Assembly: GCF_000151315.2 (NCBI RefSeq)
Contig: NW_011887296.1
Coordinates: 233,657-297,656, forward strand
Reading direction: 5' to 3'
DNA: 64,000 nucleotides
Origin: Capsaspora owczarzaki ATCC 30864
Taxonomy: Eukaryota > Opisthokonta > Filasterea
Shown here piece by piece: positions 7,790 to 51,600 of the stretch (positions are counted from its first letter, which is position 1; every line of letters starts with the position of its first letter). The position numbers were made by a program, and so were the translations under genes. The notes beneath the pieces were generated by a model. It searched no databases. It worked only from the letters and a program-made list of their open reading frames with translations, and was not told the origin of the DNA.

Positions 7790-7862
7790 TGCTCCAAAGC
7801 AGAATCGAACTACCGACCTTATCATTACGAGTGACACGCTCTACCAGCTGAGCTATTGGAGC
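7790..7862 (-). tRNA. tRNA-Thr (anticodon CGU)
   Basis: A 73-nt cloverleaf on the minus strand. The acceptor arms GCTCCAA and TTGGAGC pair perfectly; the D arm is GCTC-loop-GAGC; the anticodon stem TGTCA/TGATA encloses loop CTCGTAA, giving anticodon CGT (reads ACG, Thr); the T arm GGTAG/CTGCT encloses TTCGATT. No intron, and CCA is not encoded. The internal A box (TAGCTCAGCTGG) and B box (GGTAGTTCGATTC) are present. Confidence 0.93.
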
Positions 7863-8742: not shown

Positions 8743-9081
8743 ATGGTCGAAGTGAGAATCATTCGCTCCGTTCGCTCGGTGCTCGCGAAGCTAATGGAAG
8801 TCACTCGCGGCACAACTTCTGAGGACGCTAGACAAGACCTAAGCCAAGCTATCGCTTTCCTGAGGGGCTTTGAAATTGAGGTATCAGACGAGATACCAGA
8901 CCCGAATACCACTAGATTGTTCCAGGATTACGTCGTCCTAGAACTTCTTAAGTTGCTTCGGCACAAGAGGCAATTTCTCTGCTTTGTACTGCCAAAGCCC
9001 TACCAGTCAAGGCGGGATCTGGCCGCTGAATACTTGGAAAGGTTTCAACAGAAGCGCATTGCTGCAGATATGCAGGACTAG
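8743..9081 (+). CDS. Small-gene family copy 1 (MVEV subtype), 112 aa
   Basis: First member of an unrecognised family of 112-114 residue proteins. This copy starts MVEVRIIRSVRSV and ends KRIAADMQD. The sequence is mostly helical in character and highly charged, with no signal peptide or membrane segment. Against the other subtypes the differences are concentrated at third codon positions (for example ATA/ATT, CCG/CCA, GTC/GTT in the conserved segment EIPDPN..RLFQDYVV), so this frame is under protein-level constraint. Its stop codon is unusual: the T and A belong to the gene, but the G is the first base of transposon 1, so a former TAA became TAG. The original 3' flank continues at 12222. Confidence 0.75.
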   Translation: MVEVRIIRSVRSVLAKLMEVTRGTTSEDARQDLSQAIAFLRGFEIEVSDEIPDPNTTRLFQDYVVLELLKLLRHKRQFLCFVLPKPYQSRRDLAAEYLERFQQKRIAADMQD

Positions 9082-9109
9082 AGAGGGCCTCCCTAAAAAG
9101 ACTCAGTCC
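9081..9109 (+). repeat. Left terminal inverted repeat of transposon 1
   Basis: 29 bases, exact reverse complement of 12191-12219. Confidence 0.97.
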
Positions 9110-9198
9110 AAAAACCATTGCGCCCCCACCCTAAAAAGACTCAAACCCGATTATCTCGGCTTGTATTCCTCCCACCCCGCCGCCGTCTTCGAATATCA

Positions 9199-11763
9199 AT
9201 GAACACTCATTCCAGCTACAAGGAAGACATGGTCAGACGGGCGCAGGAGCAACTTGAGGTCGGCCTCGCCCAGATTGCGACCGCGTCTCCCTTCCGCCAG
9301 AGGCTCCTGACGAAGGCCACCGCCCTCAAACTATACTATTTTGACCCGTTCCTATCCACTACGGATGTCGGCGGAGCTCCGGGAGCCTCCGCCGAGCGAA
9401 TCTGGACGACCCGCCAAATCGCCCATGCGCTGGGTCGATCGCAGTCCATGATCGCCCGCTGCATCAAGGCCCACGCCAACCTCGCTCCTGACATTCCTGG
9501 AATGACCTTAGATGAGTTGGCTGACGTTCTGCGCGAGGATCCCATCCAGGGACAAGGCTACGTGTTCACCGTCCCCGAGGAGCAAGAGCTCGTCGAGTTT
9601 GTCAAGCGGTGCTGCTTAGGAGCTGTCTCTCTGAGCAAAACGGAATTCACTCGATATGTGCTTGCAGCCTCGAAGGTGCCGAGGCCGGACGGCGTGGAAA
9701 GACGTCAATTTGAGCACGACAAAGTTTCCGACAAGTGGGTCAATGATTTTGTCGCCCGTCACAGCTCACAGATTGGCTGGCGCAGTAGCAGCGTGTTGGA
9801 AACACTTCGAGTGGCTGCTTTGAGTGAAAAGAAGCTCGGCAGTTTGTTCGCGCTACTGGCGGAGTACAGCAATCTTTACCCGACTCTTTTCGCTACGCCG
9901 GCCAATATTTTCAACATGGACGAGTCGGATTGCTCTGTGGGTCGTAAAAAGAAGCGTGCCCTGGCTGCTGTTGGTGTCAAGCGTGTCAGTCGGCGATCTG
10001 GCCGAACCATTACGATGGGACCGCATGTTACTGGTCTGTTTACTGTTTGTGCTGATGGCACCGCTCCTGTTGCGCCCCACTTCATTGTCGCGCATCCACG
10101 GCCCACTCTACCTCACAGGTGCACCGAGGGCCTGGACGAGGAGTTGATTCACCAGTCCGAGTCCGGCTTCATCAACGAGGAAATCTTCGACAAGTGGTTT
10201 CGAGATTTCGTCGAGGTCGTCAAGGAGCGAGCTACCACCACCCCCGTTCTATTGGTGATGGATGGCAGCTCGTGTCACAAGTTCACTGTCGGGTTGATTG
10301 ACCTCGCGGTGAGCAACAACATCCTGGTTGCGATCCTTCCATCGCACACGTCGACTCACTTGCAGCCGCTCGACGTCACCGTCTTTGCCTGGTACAAGAA
10401 CTTGCTCGAGACTCACGTGCAGTCGATTTTGGATGAAGACTCGCCACTCATCGACGTGAACATCAAGCTTCACGGGGCCATTCGGGCGTGGAACGAAATT
10501 GACGACCGATCCAACTTGATCCGATCTGGGTTTCGCCAAACTGGTATCTATCCGCTGGACACGGAAAAGCACAAGACCCTAGCGTTGCCTTCCGTCGCTG
10601 ACGTTGCCGTGTCTACGACCCCCTCGCTGCACATTCCCGAGCCACCCCCGACCCCGGATGCTCGGTATTCGGCGTTGTACCGTGTCCGTCAGATTGCCGA
10701 TGCCGCCCTGGTAACCATTGGTTGCACTCCGAGAGCTCTACAGCAAAAGAGGGTGCACGATGCAGCGGTAGCTGATTTGCGTCGAAATCTCGAGGTCGAA
10801 CTTTCGGTGCAAGAAGTCCTTCGGGCCCCACCCAGGCCCCTGCGGTCCAGGAGCATTGGCAACAGCTCCATGCGCGTTTCTATGAACTCGACCGCTCGAT
10901 CCCCGCTTACGCCGGAGAATAGGGATGCCCAGCTTAAGCGGCAGGAGTTGCAAGAGAAGAGGAAGCAGCTCGAACCTCTGAAAGAAGAGTACAATCGGCA
11001 ACGGCCCATCTTCCTCCGCACGCTAAAAGACCTTGACTCACGCATCTTGACACTTGCGGAGACAATTCTTGCTCTGGAGACTCAGCTGGCTGCTCTGGGA
11101 GAAGAGGTCGAGCAGGACATCGAATCGGCAACTGCCGCGGAGACCCGAAACAAGCTAGCTGCTGCTCGCCTGCAGCATACCAAGCTCGTACGTGACCGCG
11201 CGACATTTTTCAAGAACCGTCTCAAGCGACCCACTCTTCTAAGTCTTGAGCCAGCGGCGACCGCTTCCACACCTCTCGTTCCTCGGCGCGTCAGCAGGCC
11301 TAGGCCCATTCTCGCTTCGCAATCGATGGCGAACGACACTGTCGACTTGGATCAATCAGCCAGCGAGGAGGAAAGCGAGTCTGACGACGATGACGACGAG
11401 AATCAAGCGTCGTCCGAAATGGCTTCCGCTGCCATCGGCCACAACGACAACCAGGAGGACCCCAGCGATGTCCAGCGTCAACCTCAAGCCGCCCGCAAGC
11501 GTCGCCAGGAAGATGACGATGAAAACGTCGCGCCCGTCTTCACCACGGTCACATCAGACTCGAGCGATGTTGTTCAAGTCGATTATCAGCTGAGCTCCAC
11601 CGAACTCCAAGAAATCCGACGCTATCGCATGCCAACACGTAGTACTACGAAGCAAGATGGACATAATGTCAAATTGGCGCGTGTAGACCTCCAACCTGCG
11701 TCGTCAAGGCCGGCGCTCAGCGACCTGACAAACCTTTCTCGAAGCAACACGCTACCACTGTAA
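9199..11763 (+). CDS. pogo/Tigger-type DDE_1 transposase (transposon 1)
   Basis: About 854 residues from the ATG at 9199; an in-frame ATG at 9118 lies among the subterminal repeats and seems less likely. An N-terminal helix-turn-helix is visible (TTRQIAHALGRSQSMIARCI). The catalytic triad is DDD: FNMDES (D241), LLVMDGSS (D355) and LQPLDVTVF (D392), with 36 residues between the last two, typical of the DDE_1 family. The C-terminal third is predicted coiled coil (around 10930-11210), followed by an acidic stretch rich in Glu/Asp/Ser (11350-11420). It would cut and paste this element at TA dinucleotides. The frame is uninterrupted. Confidence 0.93.
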   Translation: MNTHSSYKEDMVRRAQEQLEVGLAQIATASPFRQRLLTKATALKLYYFDPFLSTTDVGGAPGASAERIWTTRQIAHALGRSQSMIARCIKAHANLAPDIPGMTLDELADVLREDPIQGQGYVFTVPEEQELVEFVKRCCLGAVSLSKTEFTRYVLAASKVPRPDGVERRQFEHDKVSDKWVNDFVARHSSQIGWRSSSVLETLRVAALSEKKLGSLFALLAEYSNLYPTLFATPANIFNMDESDCSVGRKKKRALAAVGVKRVSRRSGRTITMGPHVTGLFTVCADGTAPVAPHFIVAHPRPTLPHRCTEGLDEELIHQSESGFINEEIFDKWFRDFVEVVKERATTTPVLLVMDGSSCHKFTVGLIDLAVSNNILVAILPSHTSTHLQPLDVTVFAWYKNLLETHVQSILDEDSPLIDVNIKLHGAIRAWNEIDDRSNLIRSGFRQTGIYPLDTEKHKTLALPSVADVAVSTTPSLHIPEPPPTPDARYSALYRVRQIADAALVTIGCTPRALQQKRVHDAAVADLRRNLEVELSVQEVLRAPPRPLRSRSIGNSSMRVSMNSTARSPLTPENRDAQLKRQELQEKRKQLEPLKEEYNRQRPIFLRTLKDLDSRILTLAETILALETQLAALGEEVEQDIESATAAETRNKLAAARLQHTKLVRDRATFFKNRLKRPTLLSLEPAATASTPLVPRRVSRPRPILASQSMANDTVDLDQSASEEESESDDDDDENQASSEMASAAIGHNDNQEDPSDVQRQPQAARKRRQEDDDENVAPVFTTVTSDSSDVVQVDYQLSSTELQEIRRYRMPTRSTTKQDGHNVKLARVDLQPASSRPALSDLTNLSRSNTLPL

Positions 11764-12190
11764 TTTTCCGTGTTTTGTGTTCAATTCTATGTGCATCCCA
11801 TGTCATTCAATGTAGTTATGTGTTTTTTCCGGTCAAAAAGGGTGAAATCATGTCTAGGCAGGGGAAGATTGGACCATGCCCGTCCGGCGCGGGCGGTCTG
11901 GCACCTGCCGGGTTCTGTGGTCACATACAGTAACCGTCGCACCAACTGCAATACATAGATACCAGTTGGTATTACATGTCCCAGTTGAAGATGGGCCGAC
12001 AGATCCTCTACACGGGCGACACGGGACTGGCAAAGTCAGTTTCTCCCTAAAACGACTCAGCCCTAATGCACGCCCAGCCAAATCGAAGCGAAAATTTTCC
12101 CCTCCGATTCGCACCAAAATTACCAAATCAACTATATAATTTATGCTCTTTCCAATGATATAGGTGGCAGGGCGAGGAAATGAACAGGGG

Positions 12191-12219
12191 GGACTGAGTC
12201 TTTTTAGGGAGGCCCTCTC
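12191..12219 (-). repeat. Right terminal inverted repeat of transposon 1
   Basis: 29 bases, exact reverse complement of 9081-9109; followed directly by the duplicated TA. Confidence 0.97.
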
Positions 12220-12221
12220 TA

Positions 12222-12387
12222 ATCCGGAAAACTTTCGTCCATTTGTCGCTTGCTTGCGCTTTTTGTGCTTTCGTTTTTGGCCTGTCGCTTGCACATTGTC
12301 AATAAATCAGAGCTAAACTTGACACGGGAAGCGCGGAAGGAGGGTTGTGCTATATTTGGACAACTGCAGTCCTCTTTGTTTTCAGCA
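12222..12387 (+). promoter_or_regulatory. Spacer with poly(A) signal of copy 1 and promoter motif of copy 2
   Basis: After transposon 1 the 3' flank of copy 1 resumes, with AATAAA near 12300. About 50 bases later comes GCTATATTTGGACAACTGCA (12349-12368), 20 bases before the next start codon. The same order, poly(A) signal then this motif or its GCTAAATTTGGAGCGCC variant, occurs in every spacer of the array. A promoter role is inferred from position and conservation. Confidence 0.55.
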
Positions 12388-12729
12388 ATGCTTCATGTGA
12401 GAGAGATTCGCACCGTAGACTCGGTGATCGATAAGCTAATGGGGGTCACTCTCGGCACAGTTTCCGCAGATGCTACTGACGACCTGAGCTTTGCTCTGGC
12501 TTTCCTGAGGGGTGTTCCAATCGAGGCACCAGCCGAGATTCCCGACCCAAATGCCACTAGATTGTTCCAGGATTATGTTGTTCAAGAACTTCTCAAGGTG
12601 CTTCGGCACAAGACACGCATTTTTTTCTGCCTCGTCCTTCCAAACCAATCTCAGTCACGGCGGGATCTGGCCGCTTACCACTTGGAGCAGTTTCAACAGA
12701 AGCGCATTGCCGCAGATATGCAAGGCTAA
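12388..12729 (+). CDS. Small-gene family copy 2 (subtype A), 113 aa
   Basis: Begins MLHVREIRTVDSVIDKLMGV and ends KRIAADMQG. First gene of the first 1513-bp three-gene unit. It is 499 bases upstream of copy 3, with a 157-base spacer containing the AATAAA near 12798. Confidence 0.75.
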   Translation: MLHVREIRTVDSVIDKLMGVTLGTVSADATDDLSFALAFLRGVPIEAPAEIPDPNATRLFQDYVVQELLKVLRHKTRIFFCLVLPNQSQSRRDLAAYHLEQFQQKRIAADMQG

Positions 12730-12886
12730 TCCTTACATTTTTCGCTTGCTTGCTCTTTGTGTGCTTTCGTTTTTGGCCTGTCGCTTGCATTGTCAATAAA
12801 TCAGAGCCAAACCTGACACGGGAAGGAAGCAGAAAATGGTCGCTAAATTTGGAGCGCCGAGAGTTTTGTAGTCTTGTTTTTCAGCA

Positions 12887-13228
12887 ATGCCTCAATATTT
12901 AAAGATGCGCACCGTGGCCTCGGTGATCGGGAAGCTAATGGAGGTCACTTGCGGCACAGTTTCCGCAGATGCTACTGACGACCTGAGCTTTGCTCTGGCT
13001 TTCCTGTGGGGTGTTCCAATCGAGGCACCAGCCGAGATTCCCGACCCAAATGCCACTAGATTGTTCCAGGATTATGTTGTTCAAGAACTTCTCAAGGTGC
13101 TTCGGCACAAGACACGCATTTTTCTCTGCCTCGTCCTTCCAAACCCAGATCAGTCACGGCGGGATCTGGCCGCTTACTACTTGGAGCAGTTTCAACGGAA
13201 GCGAATTGCAGCAGATATGCAGGACTAA
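12887..13228 (+). CDS. Small-gene family copy 3 (subtype B), 113 aa
   Basis: Begins MPQYLKMRTVASVIGKLMEV, with a W in LSFALAFLWGVPIEA where other subtypes have R, and ends KRIAADMQD. Preceded by the GCTAAATTTGGAGCGCC variant of the upstream motif (from about 12842). An AATAAA follows near 13308. Confidence 0.75.
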   Translation: MPQYLKMRTVASVIGKLMEVTCGTVSADATDDLSFALAFLWGVPIEAPAEIPDPNATRLFQDYVVQELLKVLRHKTRIFLCLVLPNPDQSRRDLAAYYLEQFQRKRIAADMQD

Positions 13229-13404
13229 TGTTATTTTTTTGGGTTTTTTTCTCGCTTGCTTGCTCTTTGTGTGCTTTCGCTTTTTGGCCTGTCGCTTGCA
13301 CATTGTCAATAAATCAGAGCCAAACGTGACACGGGAAGCACTGAAGCAGAATGGGTCGCTAAATTTGGAGCGCCGAGAGTTTTTGTAGTCTTGTTTTTTC
13401 AGCA

Positions 13405-13746
13405 ATGCTTCATGTCGTAAAGATTCGCACCGTGGACTCGGTGATCGCGAAGCTATTGAAGGTCACTCTCGGCACAGTTTCCGCAGATGCTACTGACGAC
13501 CTGAGCTTTGCTCTGGCTTTCCTGAGGGGTGTTCCAATCGAGGCACCAGCCGAGATTCCCGACCCAAATGCCACTAGATTGTTCCAAGATTATGTGGTTC
13601 AAGAACTTCTCAAGGTGCTTCGGCACAAGACACGCATTTTTCTCTGCCTCGTCCTTCCAAACCAATCTCAGTCAAGGCGAGATCTGGCCGCTGACCACTT
13701 GGAGCAGTTTCAACGGAAGCGCATTGCCGCAGATATGCAGGGCTAA
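13405..13746 (+). CDS. Small-gene family copy 4 (subtype C), 113 aa
   Basis: Begins MLHVVKIRTVDSVIAKLLKV and ends FQRKRIAADMQG. Carries the C-type segment CCAAGATTATGTGG around 13587. Its 3' flank is distinguished by TTACTGGCCTG and CAATAAACC. Confidence 0.75.
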   Translation: MLHVVKIRTVDSVIAKLLKVTLGTVSADATDDLSFALAFLRGVPIEAPAEIPDPNATRLFQDYVVQELLKVLRHKTRIFLCLVLPNQSQSRRDLAADHLEQFQRKRIAADMQG

Positions 13747-13900
13747 TCCTTACATTTTTCGCTTGCTTGCTCGTTGTGTGCTTTCGTTACTGGCCTGTCG
13801 CTTGCACACTGTCAATAAACCAGAGCTAAACTTGACACGGGAAGCGCGGAAGGAGGGTTGTGCTATATTTGGACAACTGCAGTCCTCTTTGTTTTCAGCA

Positions 13901-14242
13901 ATGCTTCATGTGAGAGAGATTCGCACCGTAGACTCGGTGATCGATAAGCTAATGGGGGTCACTCTCGGCACAGTTTCCGCAGATGCTACTGACGACCTGA
14001 GCTTTGCTCTGGCTTTCCTGAGGGGTGTTCCAATCGAGGCACCAGCCGAGATTCCCGACCCAAATGCCACTAGATTGTTCCAGGATTATGTTGTTCAAGA
14101 ACTTCTCAAGGTGCTTCGGCACAAGACACGCATTTTTTTCTGCCTCGTCCTTCCAAACCAATCTCAGTCACGGCGGGATCTGGCCGCTTACCACTTGGAG
14201 CAGTTTCAACAGAAGCGCATTGCCGCAGATATGCAAGGCTAA
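13901..14242 (+). CDS. Small-gene family copy 5 (subtype A, unit 2), 113 aa
   Basis: Same protein as copy 2. A longer open frame reaches back to 13529, but the family start is the ATG at 13901, where the conserved upstream motif (13862-13882) ends 18 bases earlier. Confidence 0.75.
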   Translation: MLHVREIRTVDSVIDKLMGVTLGTVSADATDDLSFALAFLRGVPIEAPAEIPDPNATRLFQDYVVQELLKVLRHKTRIFFCLVLPNQSQSRRDLAAYHLEQFQQKRIAADMQG

Positions 14243-14571
14243 TCCTTACATTTTTCGCTTGCTTGCTCTTTGTGTGCTTTCGTTTTTGGCCTGTCGCTTG
14301 CATTGTCAATAAATCAGAGCCAAACCTGACACGGGAAGGAAGCAGAAAATGGTCGCTAAATTTGGAGCGCCGAGAGTTTTGTAGTCTTGTTTTTCAGCAA
14401 TGCCTCAATATTTAAAGATGCGCACCGTGGCCTCGGTGATCGGGAAGCTAATGGAGGTCACTTGCGGCACAGTTTCCGCAGATGCTACTGACGACCTGAG
14501 CTTTGCTCTGGCTTTCCTGTGGGGTGTTCCAATCGAGGCACCAGCCGAGATTCCCGACCCAAATGCCACTA

Positions 14572-17500
14572 GAGTGACGGTCTCTAAATCCGGATGGCGC
14601 CTCCTACGGCCTGTGTGCAAGCTTCCGCTCGCGCCTTGCCCCCCTGTGTCAATCAGTGCATCAATACCAATGTGTGGGTGAAGTAGCGGGGCGCTTTGGC
14701 CCGAACTCATCGCTAGGCACGCGAAAAACGAAAAAATGACGAAAAAGCGGATCCAGCCAAAATCCAATGCATCCGGATTAAAATGCAGGTGTTTTTGGGG
14801 CCGCCACGAGGTTGATCGCAAACGCGCCCTGCGGGCTCTGTGACATCGCCAGCCCGCCTTCCGCGAGCCAAATGCAGTCTACACACGATAGGTGTTATCG
14901 TGACCAAGCGGGCGCGGAGGTGCGGTCGACACGAGCGTGGGAATGGAGGATACGCTCGAACACCACTTTTGCAGCCAATCCATCGTGAGCTCCCGTCCGG
15001 CTGCTAATCGCTCTTCGAGCTAGATTGATGGAGTATATGACATATCAAACCATTTTATTCAATAAACAATACAAAAATCAGGCAGAGTTTACATTTAGTG
15101 CGACGAACGGCCGTCGGTGAGCATTTGTTGCTTGTTTGCTCAGGCGAATCACAAGAGATGGTGGATCTTCAACACGAGGACGCTTGTCAAGGTGCTCAGG
15201 CGTCGGGGCAGCATTAGAGGCTAGTTGAGTAGCGGAACTGCGCGTTGGGAGGCGACTTTGGCGCATGCGGGCCACTAGTTCATCGGTAAACTGCACTCCG
15301 TCGTATGAACCGTCGCTGTCGGACCTTTCAGAGAATGTTCGTTTTGCTGGTGTGATTGCGATCGTTTGCTGGGTCGTCAGGATGGGGAGCGACGGCGAGG
15401 GCAGGCTCTCAGTCGGATTTGCAGCAACAGGCTCTGCAGCCTGCGACAAAACTTGCTCTGATTGACGCAAAGCAATCTGTCGGGCACGAGCGGGAGTTTG
15501 AGTACGAGCAACAGGGGCTCGAGTACGTTTCGGAGTTGAAGCTTGAAGTGCGGCCAGCTCGTTGCGAGCTTGGGCGAGCTCTGCTTCGCGCAAAGGGTCT
15601 TGCAACTCGGCGGCGGCGGCGAGTTCAGTCTGCAGTGCACTGATTCTCCGTGTCAGAGCAAATTTTGCGTGCTCGGCGGCGGCCTCGGCAGCCATGGTAC
15701 GTGACCGGTTCATCAATCGAGTCATCTCCTGCGCAATCTTCGTTTGTTCTTGCAGTTTTTTTGCGTTCGCCCGCTGCATTGCCTCCTCGGTAATCGCCAG
15801 ATACGCGCCTTTCGTATGCTTGTGCTTGTAGGTAGTGCTGGTTTGAATTGCGAGGGAATAGGAAGCACGCTGCACGATATCATCGACGGTGATGGGGACG
15901 CTCAGCAACTCGCGAAGTTTGCCAACGTGACTGAGTGCATCTCGTTCTAGCGCCTCGGAACTGGGACCAGCTGCAAGTTCAACATCGGCATCATCGAGGA
16001 TTAGGCGAGCCTTCTTGAATATCAAACGCACCGGCGAAAGCGAGGGAGCAGGGTCTGGGACGCTGGCATACCCGCTCTCCACCGAGGGCAAAGGCGGTGT
16101 GGGGTGGGATATCTCGGCACTCTCGACGACGGGCAGCGTTGGAGTCGACAGGAGATTGGGGACGCTCGCCGTGTCTGTGGGCGTTGCAGAAACTGGCTGG
16201 ACGGGCGCAGCCAAGGCCTCTTTTCCTATGAGTGATTCAGTTCTGCTCGCATGGTCCGGGCTCACCACCCACTCGCAGTATGCATTCTTGTCCAAAGGCC
16301 AGATTCCAGTCTTTTTAAATCCAGCAGTGATGACGGCTGTATTTTGCGAAATCTTGTACCACGCATTCAGAGCGCAATGCACTCGCATTTGGTCGTCCGA
16401 GGCAAAGACGCCAGCTGCAATCGCGCTCGCATACTCTGCTTGTAACTGACGCTTGAAGTAGCCAAACACAGTGCGATCGAGTGGCTGAGTCTCAGTGCTC
16501 GTGTGCGCGGGCAAGACAAGAATCTGAATTTGATCGTAGAAAAACTCGGCCACCAAATCGTGCTCGAGGCTGTGCGTGGATGAGCCATCCATGATCAAAA
16601 GCAGCGGGCCTGACGGGTGTCTTTCTCGCATGCAGCTTCGCCACTCGCGCAGATAAGTTTTGAACAAGTCTGAGGTCATGTACCCCTTCTCGGTCGTTGC
16701 GGTAGAGCAGGCGTCAATGGGAACGTGTTGGCAAACCGTCGCGACGTTCGTACCCTTCGTAAAAATCAGCATGGGAGGGAGCGGCGCAGTTCCATCGGCA
16801 CACACCAAGAAGACGCCGGTGATGTGCCGTCCGAGGCTGTTGTTGTGCCCACCGCCAACGAGCGCGACACGACCCCACGATGCCCCTAATACAGTCGATC
16901 CCTTGACGCGAGAAGAAATCTCGCTCTCGTCAAAGTTGCTGACGCGGCTCGGCTCGACGGTAAGGAGAGGATGTTGATCGTAGGCCTGTTTGAGTTGAGT
17001 CGGGAGAGTCCCGAGATTGTCGGGTGTCAGCGCTGCAGCCCGGCACACTTCCAGCACACGGCCCTTTCGAAGCCTGACGCGTCCCTTCGCTCGCTTCAAA
17101 AAGGTGGCCCACCAGGACCGGCTAGGCGTGTCTTGGACAAACGCCCGCCTTGGTGAGCCGTCGAAAGAAGTTGTTTCAGAACACGGTTTCAAGTACTTGG
17201 CGGCCTGCGCTTTCGTCAGACAGCATGACGCGCGAGCAAACGCTTCCAATAAATTGATAATTGCATCAACTTCGTGATCGGTAAAGATGGGTGGTCGGCC
17301 TTTCGTGCGGGTGGACCGCGCCAGCTCGATCACTTCATCCAGCGTTCCAGACTGAATCAGTTCGCGGTGGCCCGCGTGGAGTTGAGCCCAGTCACTGACA
17401 GTCGACTTTCCGCACTTGAAGCCAGCCTGCCCCAGCCGCGCGGCGACCTGTTCACATGTCCATTGAAATGGTGTTGTCGTACAACCAGTCGAGAGGGTCA

Positions 17501-17766
17501 GCGGACCCGGGGTTAGCAGCTTGAGGGCGATGGCGATGGCGATCGGTCGTCGGTTTTTTCCAGCCGCCTCGGCGAGTCGCCCAAACCACCCCGCGACGAT
17601 CGCAGCCACCTCAACAAGACACTCCATGTGATAACCAACTCGATTTATGTACAATGGTGAAAGAGCCGAGGCGAAGCGATGAATAGACTGCGAGAAAAAC
17701 GCCTCATCCGGATTAAAATGCAACTCTCGAGGTCTGTAATGCGTCCGGATTTAGAGACAGTTACTC
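14572..17766 (-). mobile_element. Transposon 2: pogo/Tigger-like DNA transposon, 3195 bp
   Basis: Imperfect terminal inverted repeats at 14572-14596 and 17742-17766 (outer GAGTRACKGTCTCTAAATCC; about three mismatches in 25) with TA duplicated at 14570-14571 and 17767-17768. The transposase is on the minus strand. A 17-bp direct repeat (ATCCGGATTAAAATGCA) sits inside each end, near 14772 and 17706. Only one of the three equivalent B genes carries it, so it inserted after the array amplified. Confidence 0.94.
15078..17627 (-). CDS. pogo/Tigger-type DDE_1 transposase (transposon 2)
   Basis: About 849 residues from the ATG at 17627 (MECLVEVAAIVAG); an upstream in-frame ATG at 17723 is close to the terminal repeat and less likely. 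Helix-turn-helix near residues 70-95 (EQVAARLGQAGFKCGKSTVS). Catalytic aspartates: SNFDESE (D233), LLLIMDGSS (D347) and TQPLDRTVF (D384). The spacings 114 and 37 are identical to those in transposon 1, so the two elements belong to one lineage although their ends differ. The C-terminal region is Ala/Glu/Gln-rich coiled coil plus a Pro/Ser-rich linker. An AATAAA on the minus strand lies just beyond the stop (about 15053-15058). The frame is intact. Confidence 0.92.
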   Translation of the reverse strand: MECLVEVAAIVAGWFGRLAEAAGKNRRPIAIAIALKLLTPGPLTLSTGCTTTPFQWTCEQVAARLGQAGFKCGKSTVSDWAQLHAGHRELIQSGTLDEVIELARSTRTKGRPPIFTDHEVDAIINLLEAFARASCCLTKAQAAKYLKPCSETTSFDGSPRRAFVQDTPSRSWWATFLKRAKGRVRLRKGRVLEVCRAAALTPDNLGTLPTQLKQAYDQHPLLTVEPSRVSNFDESEISSRVKGSTVLGASWGRVALVGGGHNNSLGRHITGVFLVCADGTAPLPPMLIFTKGTNVATVCQHVPIDACSTATTEKGYMTSDLFKTYLREWRSCMRERHPSGPLLLIMDGSSTHSLEHDLVAEFFYDQIQILVLPAHTSTETQPLDRTVFGYFKRQLQAEYASAIAAGVFASDDQMRVHCALNAWYKISQNTAVITAGFKKTGIWPLDKNAYCEWVVSPDHASRTESLIGKEALAAPVQPVSATPTDTASVPNLLSTPTLPVVESAEISHPTPPLPSVESGYASVPDPAPSLSPVRLIFKKARLILDDADVELAAGPSSEALERDALSHVGKLRELLSVPITVDDIVQRASYSLAIQTSTTYKHKHTKGAYLAITEEAMQRANAKKLQEQTKIAQEMTRLMNRSRTMAAEAAAEHAKFALTRRISALQTELAAAAELQDPLREAELAQARNELAALQASTPKRTRAPVARTQTPARARQIALRQSEQVLSQAAEPVAANPTESLPSPSLPILTTQQTIAITPAKRTFSERSDSDGSYDGVQFTDELVARMRQSRLPTRSSATQLASNAAPTPEHLDKRPRVEDPPSLVIRLSKQATNAHRRPFVALNVNSA

Positions 17767-18114
17767 TAGATTGTTCCAGGATTATGTTGTTCAAGAACTT
17801 CTCAAGGTGCTTCGGCACAAGACACGCATTTTTCTCTGCCTCGTCCTTCCAAACCCAGATCAGTCACGGCGGGATCTGGCCGCTTACTACTTGGAGCAGT
17901 TTCAACGGAAGCGAATTGCAGCAGATATGCAGGACTAATGTTATTTTTTTGGGTTTTTTTCTCGCTTGCTTGCTCTTTGTGTGCTTTCGCTTTTTGGCCT
18001 GTCGCTTGCACATTGTCAATAAATCAGAGCCAAACGTGACACGGGAAGCACTGAAGCAGAATGGGTCGCTAAATTTGGAGCGCCGAGAGTTTTTGTAGTC
18101 TTGTTTTTTCAGCA

Positions 18115-18456
18115 ATGCTTCATGTCGTAAAGATTCGCACCGTGGACTCGGTGATCGCGAAGCTATTGAAGGTCACTCTCGGCACAGTTTCCGCAGATGC
18201 TACTGACGACCTGAGCTTTGCTCTGGCTTTCCTGAGGGGTGTTCCAATCGAGGCACCAGCCGAGATTCCCGACCCAAATGCCACTAGATTGTTCCAAGAT
18301 TATGTGGTTCAAGAACTTCTCAAGGTGCTTCGGCACAAGACACGCATTTTTCTCTGCCTCGTCCTTCCAAACCAATCTCAGTCAAGGCGAGATCTGGCCG
18401 CTGACCACTTGGAGCAGTTTCAACGGAAGCGCATTGCCGCAGATATGCAGGGCTAA
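18115..18456 (+). CDS. Small-gene family copy 7 (subtype C, unit 2), 113 aa
   Basis: Same protein as copy 4 (MLHVVKIRTVDSV, FQRKRIAADMQG), exactly 4710 bases further on. Confidence 0.75.
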   Translation: MLHVVKIRTVDSVIAKLLKVTLGTVSADATDDLSFALAFLRGVPIEAPAEIPDPNATRLFQDYVVQELLKVLRHKTRIFLCLVLPNQSQSRRDLAADHLEQFQRKRIAADMQG

Positions 18457-18610
18457 TCCTTACATTTTTCGCTTGCTTGCTCGTTGTGTGCTTTCGTTAC
18501 TGGCCTGTCGCTTGCACACTGTCAATAAACCAGAGCTAAACTTGACACGGGAAGCGCGGAAGGAGGGTTGTGCTATATTTGGACAACTGCAGTCCTCTTT
18601 GTTTTCAGCA

Positions 18611-18952
18611 ATGCTTCATGTGAGAGAGATTCGCACCGTAGACTCGGTGATCGATAAGCTAATGGGGGTCACTCTCGGCACAGTTTCCGCAGATGCTACT
18701 GACGACCTGAGCTTTGCTCTGGCTTTCCTGAGGGGTGTTCCAATCGAGGCACCAGCCGAGATTCCCGACCCAAATGCCACTAGATTGTTCCAGGATTATG
18801 TTGTTCAAGAACTTCTCAAGGTGCTTCGGCACAAGACACGCATTTTTTTCTGCCTCGTCCTTCCAAACCAATCTCAGTCACGGCGGGATCTGGCCGCTTA
18901 CCACTTGGAGCAGTTTCAACAGAAGCGCATTGCCGCAGATATGCAAGGCTAA
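18611..18952 (+). CDS. Small-gene family copy 8 (subtype A, unit 3), 113 aa
   Basis: Same protein as copies 2 and 5. Upstream motif at about 18572-18592. Confidence 0.75.
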   Translation: MLHVREIRTVDSVIDKLMGVTLGTVSADATDDLSFALAFLRGVPIEAPAEIPDPNATRLFQDYVVQELLKVLRHKTRIFFCLVLPNQSQSRRDLAAYHLEQFQQKRIAADMQG

Positions 18953-19109
18953 TCCTTACATTTTTCGCTTGCTTGCTCTTTGTGTGCTTTCGTTTTTGGC
19001 CTGTCGCTTGCATTGTCAATAAATCAGAGCCAAACCTGACACGGGAAGGAAGCAGAAAATGGTCGCTAAATTTGGAGCGCCGAGAGTTTTGTAGTCTTGT
19101 TTTTCAGCA

Positions 19110-19451
19110 ATGCCTCAATATTTAAAGATGCGCACCGTGGCCTCGGTGATCGGGAAGCTAATGGAGGTCACTTGCGGCACAGTTTCCGCAGATGCTACTG
19201 ACGACCTGAGCTTTGCTCTGGCTTTCCTGTGGGGTGTTCCAATCGAGGCACCAGCCGAGATTCCCGACCCAAATGCCACTAGATTGTTCCAAGATTATGT
19301 GGTTCAAGAACTTCTCAAGGTGCTTCGGCACAAGACACGCATTTTTCTCTGCCTCGTCCTTCCAAACCCAGATCAGTCACGGCGGGATCTGGCCGCTTAC
19401 TACTTGGAGCAGTTTCAACGGAAGCGAATTGCAGCAGATATGCAGGACTAA
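19110..19451 (+). CDS. Small-gene family copy 9 (subtype B with C-type patch), 113 aa
   Basis: Protein as copy 3. Its DNA carries the C-type block CCAAGATTATGTGG near 19288 instead of the B-type CCAGGATTATGTTG, while sequence on both sides is B-type. This is the pattern left by gene conversion. Confidence 0.75.
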   Translation: MPQYLKMRTVASVIGKLMEVTCGTVSADATDDLSFALAFLWGVPIEAPAEIPDPNATRLFQDYVVQELLKVLRHKTRIFLCLVLPNPDQSRRDLAAYYLEQFQRKRIAADMQD

Positions 19452-19627
19452 TGTTATTTTTTTGGGTTTTTTTCTCGCTTGCTTGCTCTTTGTGTGCTTT
19501 CGCTTTTTGGCCTGTCGCTTGCACATTGTCAATAAATCAGAGCCAAACGTGACACGGGAAGCACTGAAGCAGAATGGGTCGCTAAATTTGGAGCGCCGAG
19601 AGTTTTTGTAGTCTTGTTTTTTCAGCA

Positions 19628-19969
19628 ATGCTTCATGTCGTAAAGATTCGCACCGTGGACTCGGTGATCGCGAAGCTATTGAAGGTCACTCTCGGCACAG
19701 TTTCCGCAGATGCTACTGACGACCTGAGCTTTGCTCTGGCTTTCCTGAGGGGTGTTCCAATCGAGGCACCAGCCGAGATTCCCGACCCAAATGCCACTAG
19801 ATTGTTCCAAGATTATGTGGTTCAAGAACTTCTCAAGGTGCTTCGGCACAAGACACGCATTTTTCTCTGCCTCGTCCTTCCAAACCAATCTCAGTCAAGG
19901 CGAGATCTGGCCGCTGACCACTTGGAGCAGTTTCAACAGAAGCGCATTGCCGCAGATATGCAAGGCTAA
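19628..19969 (+). CDS. Small-gene family copy 10 (subtype C, A-like 3' end), 113 aa
   Basis: Starts like copies 4 and 7, but from about 19937 (CAACAGAAGCGC, CAAGGCTAA) and through the 3' flank it follows subtype A. It reads FQQKRIAADMQG where the other C copies have FQRK. A crossover or conversion boundary lies inside the gene. Confidence 0.75.
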   Translation: MLHVVKIRTVDSVIAKLLKVTLGTVSADATDDLSFALAFLRGVPIEAPAEIPDPNATRLFQDYVVQELLKVLRHKTRIFLCLVLPNQSQSRRDLAADHLEQFQQKRIAADMQG

Positions 19970-20133
19970 TCCTTACATTTTTCGCTTGCTTGCTCTTTGT
20001 GTGCTTTCGTTTTTGGCCTGTCGCTTGCACATTGTCAATAAATCAGAGCCAACCCTGACACGGGAAGCGCGGAAGCAGAAAATGGTCGCTAAATTTGGAG
20101 CGCCGAGAGTTTTTGTAGTTTTGTTTTTCAGCA

Positions 20134-20478
20134 ATGTTGCCAAAAGTTATTATGATTCGCTCCGTTAGCTCGGTGATCGCGAAGCTAATGGAAGTCACTC
20201 GCGGCACAGTTTCCGACGCCGCTAGACACGACTTGAACGAAGCTCTCGCTTACCTGAATGGCTTTGAAATTGAAGTATCAGACGAGATACCAGACCCCAA
20301 TACAACTAGATTGTTCCAGGATTATGTTGTTCAAGAACTTCTCAAGGTGCTTCGGCACAAGACGCAATTTCTCTGCTTTGTACTTTCAAATCCCTACCAG
20401 ATAAGGCGAGATCTGGCCGCTTGCTCCTTGGAAAGGTTTCAACAGAAGCGCATTGCAGCTGACGAGCGCTCTTGTTAG
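20134..20478 (+). CDS. Small-gene family copy 11 (subtype D), 114 aa
   Basis: Diverged member: MLPKVIMIRSVSSVIAKLME at the start, FEIEVSDEIPDPNTTRLFQD in the core and the distinct end IAADERSC in place of IAADMQG. The core is closer to the MVEV subtype (copies 1 and 14), the upstream spacer to subtype B/C. Last gene of the array; no AATAAA of the family type follows. Confidence 0.75.
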   Translation: MLPKVIMIRSVSSVIAKLMEVTRGTVSDAARHDLNEALAYLNGFEIEVSDEIPDPNTTRLFQDYVVQELLKVLRHKTQFLCFVLSNPYQIRRDLAACSLERFQQKRIAADERSC

Positions 20479-20886
20479 AGAAGCACTCTCCAAAAGCATA
20501 CCCTTGCTTGCGCATTCGCACACACAGCCAAGCTTGCATGGTTGCTCACAACTTGGCTGATTGAATTTGTTTTTTGTTTTTTGTTCGCTTTTTTCATTGA
20601 CTGTGTTCATGGCTATCGCTTTCTCCAGTTCTGCAAAACACTCTGAAAGTTTTGAAAACGCCGCAAGGACGCAACGGCAGAACTCCGAAAACCATGCTCC
20701 AAGCGATCGGGATGCACTGATGGCTGTATTTTGGTGTTGGCTTGTGAACGTATCGACATTCAATTTGGAAATACAAAGGGCACTCTTTACTTTCCTCAAT
20801 TTGCCGATGTCGAGCTCAAGCAGTTCCACGCCGAGTTCTCCGCTTCTCGTAATTTTAAATCTTGGCTCTATCTGTTTTTCTTTTTT

Positions 20887-20892
<6 letters not shown>

Positions 20893-20925
<33 letters not shown>
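20893..20925. repeat. (TC)n microsatellite
   Basis: About 16 TC units. Confidence 0.95.
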
Positions 20926-20928
<3 letters not shown>

Positions 20929-21056
20929 ACGCTCCATTCCGCTTCCTCTCGCTTATTCGCTCATCCTCATCATCTGATTCGACTTTGATCCACGGAGACG
21001 AGAAACAGCCCCCTTTGGGAGCTGTGCTCCTGTGGGTACTTGTCTGCTCTATTTTT

Positions 21057-21096
21057 TTCTCAACCGTTTTTCTCAACCGTTTTTCTCAACCGTTTT
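21057..21096. repeat. 14-bp tandem repeat, three units
   Basis: TTTTTCTCAACCGT repeated three times in a row, followed within 30 bases by a CA-rich tract (21122-21185). Confidence 0.9.
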
Positions 21097-21300
21097 GCAT
21101 CGTACAACTTTCCAATGCCACCGCACACACCGCACCACACACACGCAGACACACACAGACACACACATACACACATGTACACAAACACCTACACACGCCG
21201 CATCATCTCGCACAAGCACTCGATTTTTCGCAAAGTGATGTCATCATACACAGCATAGCCAAAAAACAAAGGAAAAAAAAAAACGGGCGTGTGGATTTAA

Positions 21301-22775
21301 ATGACCCCGAAGCGAGCTCAGCTACTACTTTCTAATCACCCCAGTGGTTGTGCCAAACAAGTCGATAGAACTGGCGGCTGGTGATCTCATTCTGATTTTT
21401 TATTGTTATTTTTTTTGGTCGGTAGGGCGGAACGATCCAAAACAACTCTCCAGCCGCTACTGTCGGCGGTGGGACGACCCTCATCGTTCCCGGCGGCCCC
21501 GGCGTCCTCGGCGTCCCCAATGCCAATGTCCACGGGGGTTACTCCACGATAGTTGACCTTCCCAAAATGGATTCCGCCCTTTTTAGTAAGCGCAAGCACT
21601 GCATTGACATGTTCTGGTCCACTCGCTAAGCCCACAGTTTTCCTCTCATTCTGCCAGATCGGGAAGAGGACGTTGCTGCCGCTCTTTTTCAGCAGGCCGA
21701 TGACCAATTTGATCGGCTTACCACTGACAGCACCTTGATCTGCCTTACATCAGCCTTTACTGCAGCCGCTGTGTCCGAGCTGTTTTGCCTGCATTCTGTC
21801 TACGAAGGGGAAATTGGATGGTTTTCTGGAGCGTTGACCATTTTCCTGGCCACTTTTGCGCTACTTGTCTTCTACAGCGAAATGCAGACGGCCGCTGGCG
21901 CAACTCATTTCTACTGGTTTGGGTTTGTGGGTGTATGGAGCTACATTCGTTTTGCCGAGGGTACTTGGTCGCGAATGATCTTTGCAGCAAATTGTCAAGT
22001 CAAGCGACTCTGGCTTGGCGCTACATTCGTCGTTATGACAGTTTTCCCGCTGGCCTACTTTGCGTATCAGGACGACAAATATCGTGGAATGGGTCTTGCT
22101 GGAGGACTTATGTCTGCTTTCCTTGTGTATCTACTCTTCATTTTTAAAAGTGGGATTGTGGAAAGGCCGCAGGGGGACCAAGATGCCGAGCTGAGTAAGT
22201 CGGATTTTCGGAATGCGCACACAGTGTCACCAGCTTGACTGACTGGCACTGCAAACTTTGAACACGTAGATCAGCAAACCACTTTTCTTCGTGAGAGATT
22301 GGGAGCATACCTCGCCCAGAATCTCCGAGAGGCTGCTGAAGAGTTCCCCAAGAAGGTTGTGACGCTCCTTCTGGTTACTGACATCATAATCTTCCTTGGA
22401 TCGGCTGCCCTCGTGGAAAAAGTTGGCGGCAAGCTACCAAACCGCGAAATTACCGTCTCAGCAACCGCAGTGGCATGGTTTTTTACATCTGTGCAAGCGA
22501 TCGTGAACATACACCGATGCAACGAGTTGAGCGCCGCTGGCACCGGCAGCACAGTTCCAGCGATTCGTCCCTTGCATGGATTGGTGGCTGTAGGCATCAG
22601 CATGATAAGCCTTGTCGTGGTCACTGCGGTCGTGTGGTCAGAAAAGCTACCGGACAACGCATCGATTTGGGGCATTACATTTGCCGTCAACTTCGGCTTC
22701 ATTGCCATCAAGCTGTACCTGCTTCACAAGGGCAATTTCCCTATGACGTGGTTCACTTGCTGCTGTTCGAAGTGA
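21301..22775 (+). CDS. Polytopic membrane protein, about nine membrane segments
   Basis: Exons 21426-21585, 21658-22194 and 22270-22775 join in phase to 400 residues. A first exon at 21301-21360 (ATG, then a phase-0 donor at 21361) would complete it, but that donor (GTCGAT) is weak and the start is uncertain. The N-terminal about 75 residues are Gly/Pro/Val-rich and soluble. Five hydrophobic segments follow in the second main exon (for example TLICLTSAFTAAAVSELFCL, LWLGATFVVMTVFPLAYFAY) and four in the last (VVTLLLVTDIIIFLGSAALV, ITFAVNFGFIAIKLYLL). It ends with the cysteine cluster TCCCSK, a possible palmitoylation site. I do not recognise the family; transport or scaffold roles cannot be told apart. 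Confidence 0.65.
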
Positions 22776-24025
22776 ATTTGTTTGTGCTGAATTTGTTTAT
22801 GCTGAGTTTGTTTGTGCTGGACCTCTCCGCACATGCTGGTGCACTTCCAACTGTTTTATTTTTCCCAATCCGATGATAATACGATGACCACGTTGTTTTG
22901 CTTTTGATTTTATGACAAACAGCAACGCAGCAAATAGTGAACGAATTATTGTTCGAATCATTGTTTGCAGGAAAGCCAAGAAAATGAAGAGAGAACGTTT
23001 GTTAATAACAGAGCCGTCCCCAACCAAAATCACCGTTTAATCTCCCCAAAGGAACAAGAAGAACGCAACTTGCAAACCAAACGTCACGAATACGACGCCG
23101 AACACACATCTTGCTCGTGAGTCATCAATTTTCACTCACTCTATTTTTTTTGTCGACCGATGTTCAACATCCGTTGGGAGCTGCTCGACTCGGCTCTGCT
23201 TCACGCGTGCGTTCTCGAAGAATAGCACCTGAATGTTCTCGTGTTGCATACTGCGCAATGAGGGCGTCGAGCACGTTTGCTTGCTGGCATTGGTTCTTAA
23301 GTCGACCGGCTCAGCTTTTTTTGTTTTTGCCGCTCAGTGTTTTTTGCCCGTTTATTCCTCCAGGAGCTGTGCCACTTGTCGCGCCATACATCACTCCCAC
23401 TACAGTAGAACACAAGCACACGCTTGAAGTCATGCTTTGTTGGAAGCAGGCACACAACGTACGGAGCACAGGCAAGTCGGTTCCCCCAGTTCTGCTTCCC
23501 TCCTCTTACTTGCGTTCTTTTTGGTTTTCCGTTTTTGGTCCCACAGGAACTTCTGTGTCGCCTAAATCGTGCTACCATGAACACGCGCGTGAACCATTGC
23601 TGGATACTCCTACTTCTACAACCTTGAACAACATGGGCATGAGCAAAAAGGGCGGCAAGTCAAGTCATCACTTTTCATCGCCTTTTTTTTTTGCATTGTC
23701 GGATGTCTGCCGCGACTCGGGATCTCCAATTGCAGTTTCGGCTTTCTTTTCAATCACAGTCTTGATGCAATAACCACGAGTTCACTCTCAAGCAAATAAT
23801 TCGGACCAAACACGTTCCCAAGCCGAGCAAGTTTGGCCAGCATGCAGTCGAATCGTTCGTTCCCTTTGGAAATCTCTTGGGCGGCCTCTTTGTTTCGTGC
23901 TTTGTCGTCGTTTTCGCTCGTATTGTGACTTTTCTGTCTTTTTGTGTGCTTTCGCTTTTGGATAGTTGCCTGCACCTTTTCAATAAACGAGAGCATGATG
24001 TGGGGGGGGGGATGGAGAGGGTTGT
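22776..24025. other. Intergenic with possible small spliced gene
   Basis: About 1.25 kb. The plus-strand frame 23111-23773 is open for 220 codons and contains good acceptors (CCTCCAG before 23365, CCCACAG before 23548, CAATCACAG before 23761), so a short multi-exon gene is possible; one reading joins AVPLVAPYITPTTVEHKHTL to a tail in SKKGG. I cannot fix start, exons or family. From about 23930 the sequence matches the 3' flank of the small-gene family (GTGTGCTTTCGCTTTTGG, then CAATAAAC near 23980), although no family gene precedes it. Confidence 0.3.
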
Positions 24026-24064
24026 GCTACATTTGGACAACTGCAGTCCTCTTTGTTTCCAGCA

Positions 24065-24406
24065 ATGCCTCATGTCGTAAAGATTCGCACCGTGGACTCG
24101 GTGATCGCGAAGCTTTTGAAGGTCACTCTCGGCACAGTTTCCGCAGATGCTACTGACGACCTGAGCTTTGCTCTGGCTTTCCTGAGGGGTGTTCCAATCG
24201 AGGCACCAGCCGAGATTCCCGACCCAAATGCCACCCGATTATTTCAAGACTACGTCGTTCAAGAACTTCTCAAGGTGCTTCGGCACAAGACACGCATTTT
24301 TTTCTGCCTCGTCCTTCCAAACCAATCTCAGTCACGGCGAGATCTGGCCGCTTACCACTTGGAGCAGTTTCAACAGAAGCGCATTGCTGCAGATATGCAG
24401 GGCTAA
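24065..24406 (+). CDS. Small-gene family copy 12 (solitary, C-like), 113 aa
   Basis: Begins MPHVVKIRTVDSVIAKLLKV and ends FQQKRIAADMQG. One internal stretch (CCCGATTATTTCAAGACTAC, about 24233) differs at third positions from all array copies but encodes the same residues. The upstream motif ATTTGGACAACTGCAG is at about 24031-24046. It lies 3.6 kb beyond the array, separated by the membrane-protein gene. Confidence 0.75.
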   Translation: MPHVVKIRTVDSVIAKLLKVTLGTVSADATDDLSFALAFLRGVPIEAPAEIPDPNATRLFQDYVVQELLKVLRHKTRIFFCLVLPNQSQSRRDLAAYHLEQFQQKRIAADMQG

Positions 24407-40795: not shown

Positions 40796-40846
<51 letters not shown>

Positions 40847-50357: not shown

Positions 50358-50699
50358 TTAGCCCTGCATATCTGCGGCAATGCGCTTCTGTTGAAACTGC
50401 TCCAAGTGGTAAGCGGCCAGATCCCGCCGTGACTGAGATTGGTTTGGAAGGACGAGGCAGAAAAAAATGCGTGTCTTGTGCCGAAGCACCTTGAGAAGTT
50501 CTTGAACAACGTAGTCTTGGAATAATCGGGTGGCATTTGGGTCGGGAATCTCGGCTGGTGCCTCGATTGGAACACCCCTCAGGAAAGCCAGAGCAAAGCT
50601 CAGGTCGTCAGTAGCATCTGCGGAAACTGTGCCGAGAGTGACCATCAGTAGCTTCGCGATCACCGAGTCCACGGTGCGAATCTTTACGACATGAGGCAT
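50358..50699 (-). CDS. Small-gene family copy 13 (C-like, minus strand), 113 aa
   Basis: MPHVVKIRTVDSVIAKLLMV at the start, FQQKRIAADMQG at the end; nearest to copy 12. Preceded on its strand by the GCTAAATTTGGAGCGCC variant (about 50720-50745). Confidence 0.75.
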   Translation of the reverse strand: MPHVVKIRTVDSVIAKLLMVTLGTVSADATDDLSFALAFLRGVPIEAPAEIPDPNATRLFQDYVVQELLKVLRHKTRIFFCLVLPNQSQSRRDLAAYHLEQFQQKRIAADMQG

Positions 50700-50864: not shown

Positions 50865-51203
50865 TTAGCCCTGCATATCTGCAGCAATGCGCTTCTGTTG
50901 AAACCTTTCCAAGAAAAAGGCGGCCAGATCTCGGCTTGTCTGGTGGGGCTTTGGAAATACAAAGCAGCCAAATTGCGTCTTGTGTCGAAGCACCTTGAGA
51001 AGCTCTTGAGCAACATAATCTTGGAACAGTCGACTGGAGGTTGGATCCGGGATCTCATTGGATACTTCAATTTCGAAGTCCCTCAGATGAGCGAGAGCTT
51101 GGTTCAGGTCGGCTGTAGCGTCTTCGGAAACTGAGCCACGAGTGACTTGTATTAGCTTGGAGATCACCGAGCCAACGGAGCGAATGATTCTCACTTCGAC
51201 CAT
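50865..51203 (-). CDS. Small-gene family copy 14 (MVEV subtype, minus strand), 112 aa
   Basis: MVEVRIIRSVGSVISKLIQV at the start; nearest to copy 1. Several replacements in the core (PTSSRLFQDYVAQELL) and LAAFFLERFQQKRIAADMQG at the end. Upstream motif on the minus strand at 51234-51254 (GCTACATTTGGACAACTAC). An AATAAA follows on the minus strand near 50793. Confidence 0.75.
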   Translation of the reverse strand: MVEVRIIRSVGSVISKLIQVTRGSVSEDATADLNQALAHLRDFEIEVSNEIPDPTSSRLFQDYVAQELLKVLRHKTQFGCFVFPKPHQTSRDLAAFFLERFQQKRIAADMQG

Positions 51204-51410
51204 TGTCGAAAACCGAGAAGACTAGACTTGTAGTTGTCCAAATGTAGCGACCTTTCCCCTCATTCCCTCATTAAAGAGAAACACGCCTCTTCCTATGTCA
51301 GGTTTAGCACTGCTTAATGGACAATGTGCAAGCGACAGGCCAAAAACGAAAGCCCACAAAGCGCAAGCAAGCTAAAATGGACGAAAGTTTTACGTTTTTT
51401 AAAGATTTGT

Positions 51411-51600
51411 CCTGCACATCTGCTGCAATATGCTTCTGTTGAAAGTTTTCCAAGAAGTAAGCGGCAAGATCGCATGTTGACTAGTATGGCTTTGGAAGTA
51501 CGAAGCAGATTTCATTGCGTCTTGGTGCCGAAGCCCCTTTTGAGAAGTAGTTCTCGAACGTCGGAATCACGGAACAGTCTAAAGTTTCGGCTCAGGTCTT
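51411..51600 (-). pseudogene. Decayed small-gene family copy (relic 15)
   Basis: The minus strand aligns with the second half of the family from about DSRLFRDSDVRELLL onward to IAADVQD, but has a frameshift, an in-frame TAG in place of a Tyr-Gln pair (near 51483) and no 5' half; low-complexity TTTTC sequence begins where it breaks off. Its 3' flank (about 51345-51400) matches that of copy 1 (AAAACTTTCGTCCATT), so it is nearest to that subtype. Confidence 0.8.

Follow-up and report, generated by a model that had tools for sequence, protein, structure and literature searches.

What are the small reading frames that stand head to tail in one part of the Capsaspora owczarzaki genome, how did they multiply, and what might their number be good for? 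Tandem amplification of lineage-specific genes is an ordinary and common kind of event in eukaryotes. A recently expanded family without a named relative nevertheless offers a tractable example of the birth of a new gene family, and here a single genome displays both ends of the process, from two distant single copies to diverged array edges, recent trimers and a copy disrupted by transposon insertion. Capsaspora is described as a transfectable model for the study of animal origins (PMC6001378). Working from a 64-kb stretch of DNA (64,000 nucleotides of strain ATCC 30864; hereafter the window) and from the complete assembly to which it belongs, we conclude that the array probably represents a lineage-specific family of genuine, small, intronless protein-coding genes, for which we propose an origin by duplication.

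Organization of the small-gene array

An ORF listing combined with tblastn searches of the 64-kb window identified 13 intact frames, each 112-114 codons long, as well as a copy that a transposon has split and a relic. Ten of the intact copies and the split copy are arranged head to tail on the plus strand between 8743 and 20478; the initial annotation had counted eleven copies in this interval, a figure that is correct only if the split copy is included. With copy 1 as the query, the 13 intact frames were recovered at E values ranging from 6e-74 (copy 1 itself) to 1.4e-44, and these values exclude chance as the source of the array.

The array begins with copy 1 (8743..9081, 112 residues), which is of subtype V. 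It is followed by copies 2 (12388..12729), 3 (12887..13228) and 4 (13405..13746), which encode 113 residues each and represent subtypes A, B and C, respectively. Copy 5 (13901..14242) is again of subtype A, and copy 6, of subtype B, has been severed into a 5′ half at 14400..14571 and a 3′ half at 17767..17938. Copies 7 (18115..18456; subtype C), 8 (18611..18952; A), 9 (19110..19451; B) and 10 (19628..19969; C) then lead to copy 11 (20134..20478), a 114-residue subtype D member that clusters with V. Direct neighbours are separated by spacers of 154, 157, 164 or 176 bp, as opposed to the 155-165 bases first reported.

Further copies lie outside the array, at 24065 and at 50.4-51.5 kb. Copy 12 (24065..24406, plus strand), detected both in the ORF listing and by tblastn, is C-like. 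Two copies found by tblastn are on the minus strand, the C-like copy 13 (50358..50699) and the V-like, 112-residue copy 14 (50865..51203), and next to them is the relic of another copy, also on the minus strand (approximately 51409..51522), which carries an in-frame TAG. The spacer at 51204-51408 corresponds to the 3′ region of the relic. The AATAAA found behind intact copies has been lost from it (it reads CCATTAAG), and this spacer looks as if it were decaying along with its gene.

The surroundings are ordinary. A tRNA-Thr gene (CGT) on the minus strand at 7790-7862 adjoins the array, and the interval 25458-49979 encodes a ceramide-kinase-like protein (DAGK_cat plus CERK_C), a GPKOW-like G-patch protein, a family 2 glycosyltransferase, a prolyl oligopeptidase and a GATA/BAH protein, with the last two domains scoring just under and under their cut-offs. 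Short, diverged direct repeats at 40141-42016 (about 74-78% identity) do not belong to the small-gene family. The tandem array that was originally proposed is real, but its description had missed two transposons, a three-gene repeat unit and two dispersed relatives, each of which is considered below.

Two pogo-like transposons interrupt the array

Both interruptions in the array are accounted for by pogo-like (DDE_1) elements, the ends of which were counted by hand from their flanks. TE1 (9081..12219, plus strand) separates copy 1 from copy 2, has a TA target duplication on either side (9079-9080 and 12220-12221), and contains an ORF at 9118-11763 (881 codons counted from TTG). TE2 (14572..17766, minus strand) splits copy 6, is bordered by a TA duplication at 14570-14571 and 17767-17768, and contains an ORF on the minus strand at 15078-17723 that likewise has 881 codons counted from TTG. 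Were both elements removed, the eleven copies would form one continuous array. All 13 intact small genes lie outside TE1 and TE2, and none is part of a pogo gene.

TE1 inserted at 9079-9081, within the TA of the copy 1 stop codon. Judging by the flanks, this codon would have been TAA before the insertion; it is now TAG, made up of TA and the first G of TE1, so that the length of the frame is preserved. A genome search with the TE1 stretch at 9300-11763 yielded at least 12 matches, of which at least 11 were full length; for the TE2 ORF there were at least 9, at least 4 of them whole-length. Each count includes the window's own element. Three further whole-length matches, on contigs C9 and C10, share ~100% identity with the TE2 ORF, and for this reason TE2 has probably been active recently.

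Pogo-like DNA transposons with TA targets have been described in C. owczarzaki (PMC4007536). TE1 and TE2 resemble those elements in DDE_1 and TA duplications. Both have inserted into the array and are not part of the small-gene family.

A repeated three-gene unit

The central part of the array (12240..19975, plus strand) consists of three head-to-tail copies of a 1513 bp unit with the gene order A-B-C. The unit limits are 12240-13752, 13753-18462 (with TE2 inside) and 18463-19975. Pairwise comparisons of the units found 1505, 1501 and 1509 identical positions out of 1513 (99.2-99.7% identity), and the five gap columns in alignments with the second unit represent bases left at the TE2 cut. In their coding regions, copies 2, 5 and 8 (subtype A) are exactly the same, as are copies 4 and 7 (subtype C), from which copy 10 differs at 2 positions; the two intact B copies, 3 and 9, also have 2 differences, both at third codon positions.

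The nucleotide tree has two clades with a support of 100/100: one contains V (8743), the minus-strand V copy and D (20134), and the other A, B, C and the C-like outliers. Taken together with the near-identical trimers, this topology places older, more diverged copies at the ends of the array and fresh ones in the middle, which is the pattern that unequal exchange would be expected to produce. In the history we propose, a single ancestral gene would have been duplicated head to tail through unequal crossing-over, and the V/D and ABC types would then have arisen. The A-B-C trimer may have been copied two more times very recently, or its copies homogenised by gene conversion, and the two pogo-like transposons would have inserted into the array later.

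Coding status and constraint on the protein

Comparisons between the V/D and A/B/C clades gave dN/dS ratios of 0.28-0.44 in 15 of 15 pairs, with a bootstrap P(dN≥dS) of ≤0.002 for these pairs (1000 replicates). Selection on the protein, as claimed from the first reading of the sequence, is thus borne out at this depth. Within the V/D clade the ratios were 0.32-0.51, the highest being V versus D (0.51, with an interval reaching 1.02). Within ABC they ranged from 0.05 to 1.41. The 24065 and 50358 copies, when compared with each other and with A and C, yielded five pairs at 0.05-0.27 (P≤0.008), and we take this to mean that separate copies have recently been under constraint. A versus C gave 0.44 (P 0.06), and subtype B lacks clear constraint in three pairings (1.41 versus A, 0.86 versus C, 0.70 versus the 50358 copy). 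A ratio near 1 between subtypes had been named as the outcome that would count against a protein-level role; between the clades the claim withstood this test, but it did not do so in comparisons that involve subtype B.

The constraint is unevenly distributed along the protein. Between clades, dN was well below dS in columns 26-60 (0.281 and 0.892), 61-85 (0.100 and 0.693) and 86-115 (0.196 and 0.587), whereas in columns 1-25 the two were about equal (0.338 and 0.328). Within A, B and C, dN in columns 1-25 exceeded dS (0.241 versus 0.110), and in the three other regions dN was 0.009, 0.012 and 0.072. These values support purifying selection on the protein outside the first 25 codons. The statement that copies differ mostly at third codon positions was too strong: V (8743) and A (12388) differ at 21, 19 and 35 sites in codon positions 1, 2 and 3, so that 47% are third positions, although dS still exceeds dN in this pair. 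When eight coding regions were aligned in 28 pairs, all indels were of 3 bases, whereas spacer indels are of any length. In a neutral simulation at d=0.25, 9% of lineages stayed free of stop codons.

Candidate transcription units

Each gene appears to be a separate unit, with a short promoter and a poly(A) signal of its own. The motif ATTTGGA begins 33-42 bases 5′ of the start codon in all 13 intact copies, with 21 sites on both strands of the whole window, and AATAAA is found 66-80 bases 3′ of the stop in 10 of 13; the copies are related, and these counts do not amount to 13 independent observations. The three copies that lack AATAAA are copy 1, whose 3′ side was displaced by TE1, and the copies at 20134 and 24065, neither of which is followed by a family spacer. 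In 4 of 13 copies there is no in-frame stop within the 150 bases upstream, which makes their start codons less certain.

Other gene models were considered and rejected. If the frames were exons spliced across the spacers, donor sites would be expected, and inspection of the alignments by eye revealed no conserved GT donor near the frame ends; moreover, all intact frames terminate in a stop codon. A TTTTCAG-like tract resembling a splice acceptor is positioned just 5′ of CAATG in 11 of the 13 intact copies (TTTCCAG in one). It is missing from both V copies, and we have given it no role for that reason. An RNA gene was also rejected: at gathering scores, Rfam models hit nothing in the window except the tRNA at 7790-7862.

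Relatives elsewhere in the genome

The genome (27,456,641 bases in 29 contigs, with the window lying in contig C5) has T-box, Runt and integrin-beta matches that exceed the family cut-offs, with hits in 0 of 14 controls, and these point to a unicellular holozoan; a Rel domain search gave no match here, nor in any control, and carries no weight. We searched all of this genome for additional members of the family. Two genes were found, each once: one encoding 132 residues at C15:776367-776762, and one encoding 135 residues from its first ATG at C8:945120-945545. No further members were detected in the genome outside the window. Copy 1 as a query recovered the C15 gene at an E value of 1.1e-5 and did not recover the C8 gene at a threshold of 0.001. 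In reverse searches, both genes led back to array copies, with best E values of 1.2e-6 (C15) and 3.0e-5 (C8). An hhalign comparison of the array with the two relatives gave a probability of 97.3 and an E value of 1.9e-11, and in shuffle tests of six pairs, 0 of 2000 shuffles reached the observed score in each.

The C15 and C8 proteins are 47-48% identical to one another, and 30% and 26% identical to copy 1, respectively. Across eight representatives 17 columns are invariant, including both prolines of EIPDPN/QVPWPT and the RD of SRRDLAA. Sequence similarity of this kind indicates common descent of the array with the C15 and C8 genes. The relatives share the core of the array proteins and differ from them in being longer, having a start rich in prolines and a charged extension at the C-terminus. 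ATTTGGA was not found within 300 bases upstream of either gene.

The search for named families was negative, in line with the earlier remark that no domain could be recognised. Three array proteins had no match in Pfam at an E value of 1, a best E value of 0.2 in PHROGs, and a best of 0.067 in NCBIfam, far under the cut-off; thus none fell below 0.05 in these three libraries. Copy 1 had no match among PDB sequences at an E value of 10, and the C15 and C8 relatives had none in Pfam at 0.1. Calling the family unrecognised was right with regard to named families, and needs amending in view of its two relatives on other contigs of the same genome. The novelty of the family is limited to the absence of a named match from the libraries that were searched; its type of amplification is already known. 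A literature search by title and the start of the abstract returned no description of the array, a result that does not show it to be unpublished.

Several candidate affiliations were considered. The PADLOC AbiEi model gave a weak match to the C15 relative (L009:4365-4763; E 0.00097, 16.8 bits, 35 residues) and none to either of two array proteins, and the match is probably due to chance. A folate-pathway enzyme was suggested by five weak matches of a profile of eight sequences against the PDB, the best at an E value of 0.26, and these were also judged to be chance. As to a viral origin, 0 of 51 pattern matches in viral contigs were confirmed, and 0 of 148 viral fold matches reached an E value of 0.001; as to a prokaryotic one, 0 of 244 pattern matches in contigs of prokaryote genomes were confirmed. 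The viral and prokaryotic sequence scans used two short patterns each, and they consequently exclude only fairly close relatives.

Predicted structure and the variable N-terminus

Two AlphaFold2 models, built from alignments of 13 and 8 rows, reached modest pLDDT values (70.8 and 63.5) and contain the same four helices, at about residues 10-21, 27-40, 57-73 and 86/88-112. The predicted fold is that of a loose four-helix protein. No significant similarity emerged when the first model was used for fold searches, and the Foldseek and VIA-align lists consisted of unrelated helical bundles. Eight representative proteins have masses of 12.7-13.2 kDa, pI values of 5.8-8.9 and a hydropathy near neutral, properties that fit a soluble intracellular protein.

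Amino acid changes among A, B and C cluster at residues 2-7 and at 11, 15, 18, 19 and 22, with about eight others scattered beyond. The five variable positions in helix 1 fall within a 100-degree arc, as do only 0.6% of 1287 possible choices, and this supports the view that the predicted helix 1 is a real amphipathic helix. We envisage a soluble, helical intracellular protein whose conserved core would bind a partner; helix 1 and the leader that precedes it differ between copies. Copy number would then be read as dosage, as a set of binding variants, or as both. A binding role is a tentative proposal, which we hold with less than even confidence. Our best guess for the amplification is that it raised the dosage or the variety of such a binding protein.

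Why was the family amplified?

The array might instead have grown by purely selfish or neutral amplification, with unequal exchange enlarging it and the signal of purifying selection being mostly a memory of an ancestral function. The near identity of the trimers, the presence of a relic, a split copy that is still unpurged, and the lack of constraint on subtype B relative to A and C would all follow from such a process. It fits poorly with the survival of 13 intact frames and with the low ratios in the five pairs that link the 24065 and 50358 copies to each other and to A and C, and neither a transposase nor repeat ends belong to the small-gene family. On this evidence we regard a purely selfish or neutral amplification as unlikely. 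That the frames are part of, or were spread by, the two array transposons is so improbable as to be practically negligible. Two pogo-like elements do sit in the array, but the inverted ends and TA duplications of both exclude the small genes, and the distributions differ: TE1 has at least 11 full-length matches on at least 10 contigs or places and TE2 at least 4, whereas, the two distant relatives aside, the small genes were found in the window only.

An arms race would account for the array in another way. The N-terminal helix would diversify in pursuit of a changing partner (a virus, parasite, host or transposon), and exchange within the array would supply variants. The excess of dN over dS in columns 1-25 within A, B and C, set against the low dN of the other regions, points in this direction, as does the location of the variable helix 1 positions on one face. 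Between A and B, codons 2-24 contain 14 nonsynonymous changes, as against 5 synonymous ones along the entire gene (binomial P 0.002); the same test gave P 0.02 for B versus C but 0.17 for A versus C, and in all three cases the N-terminal region was selected after the data had been seen. A direct contrast of the N-terminus with the rest of the protein weakens the case (Fisher P 0.37 for A-B, 0.14 for A-C and 0.07 for B-C). Exposed helix faces vary without an arms race too, and between the clades N-terminal dN merely equals dS. The fast-evolving N-terminus therefore gives hints of an arms race that are statistically weak, and we consider the arms-race account quite unlikely, while noting that it is compatible with the gene-family part of our preferred explanation. 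A more elaborate version is speculative and more doubtful still: a family of recognition proteins or antagonists, peculiar to Capsaspora, would display a variable first helix on a conserved helical core, and the recent expansion of the A-B-C trimer would supply new variants as the target changes, the target possibly being the active transposons or a Capsaspora virus.

The preferred reading, a family of small protein-coding genes that multiplied by tandem duplication, places the locus in familiar company. Lineage-specific tandem arrays of small genes in eukaryotes likewise show copies in head-to-tail order, recent units that are nearly identical, diverged edges, relics and transposon insertions. 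What sets the present array apart from them is its protein family, which matched nothing named in the libraries that were searched.
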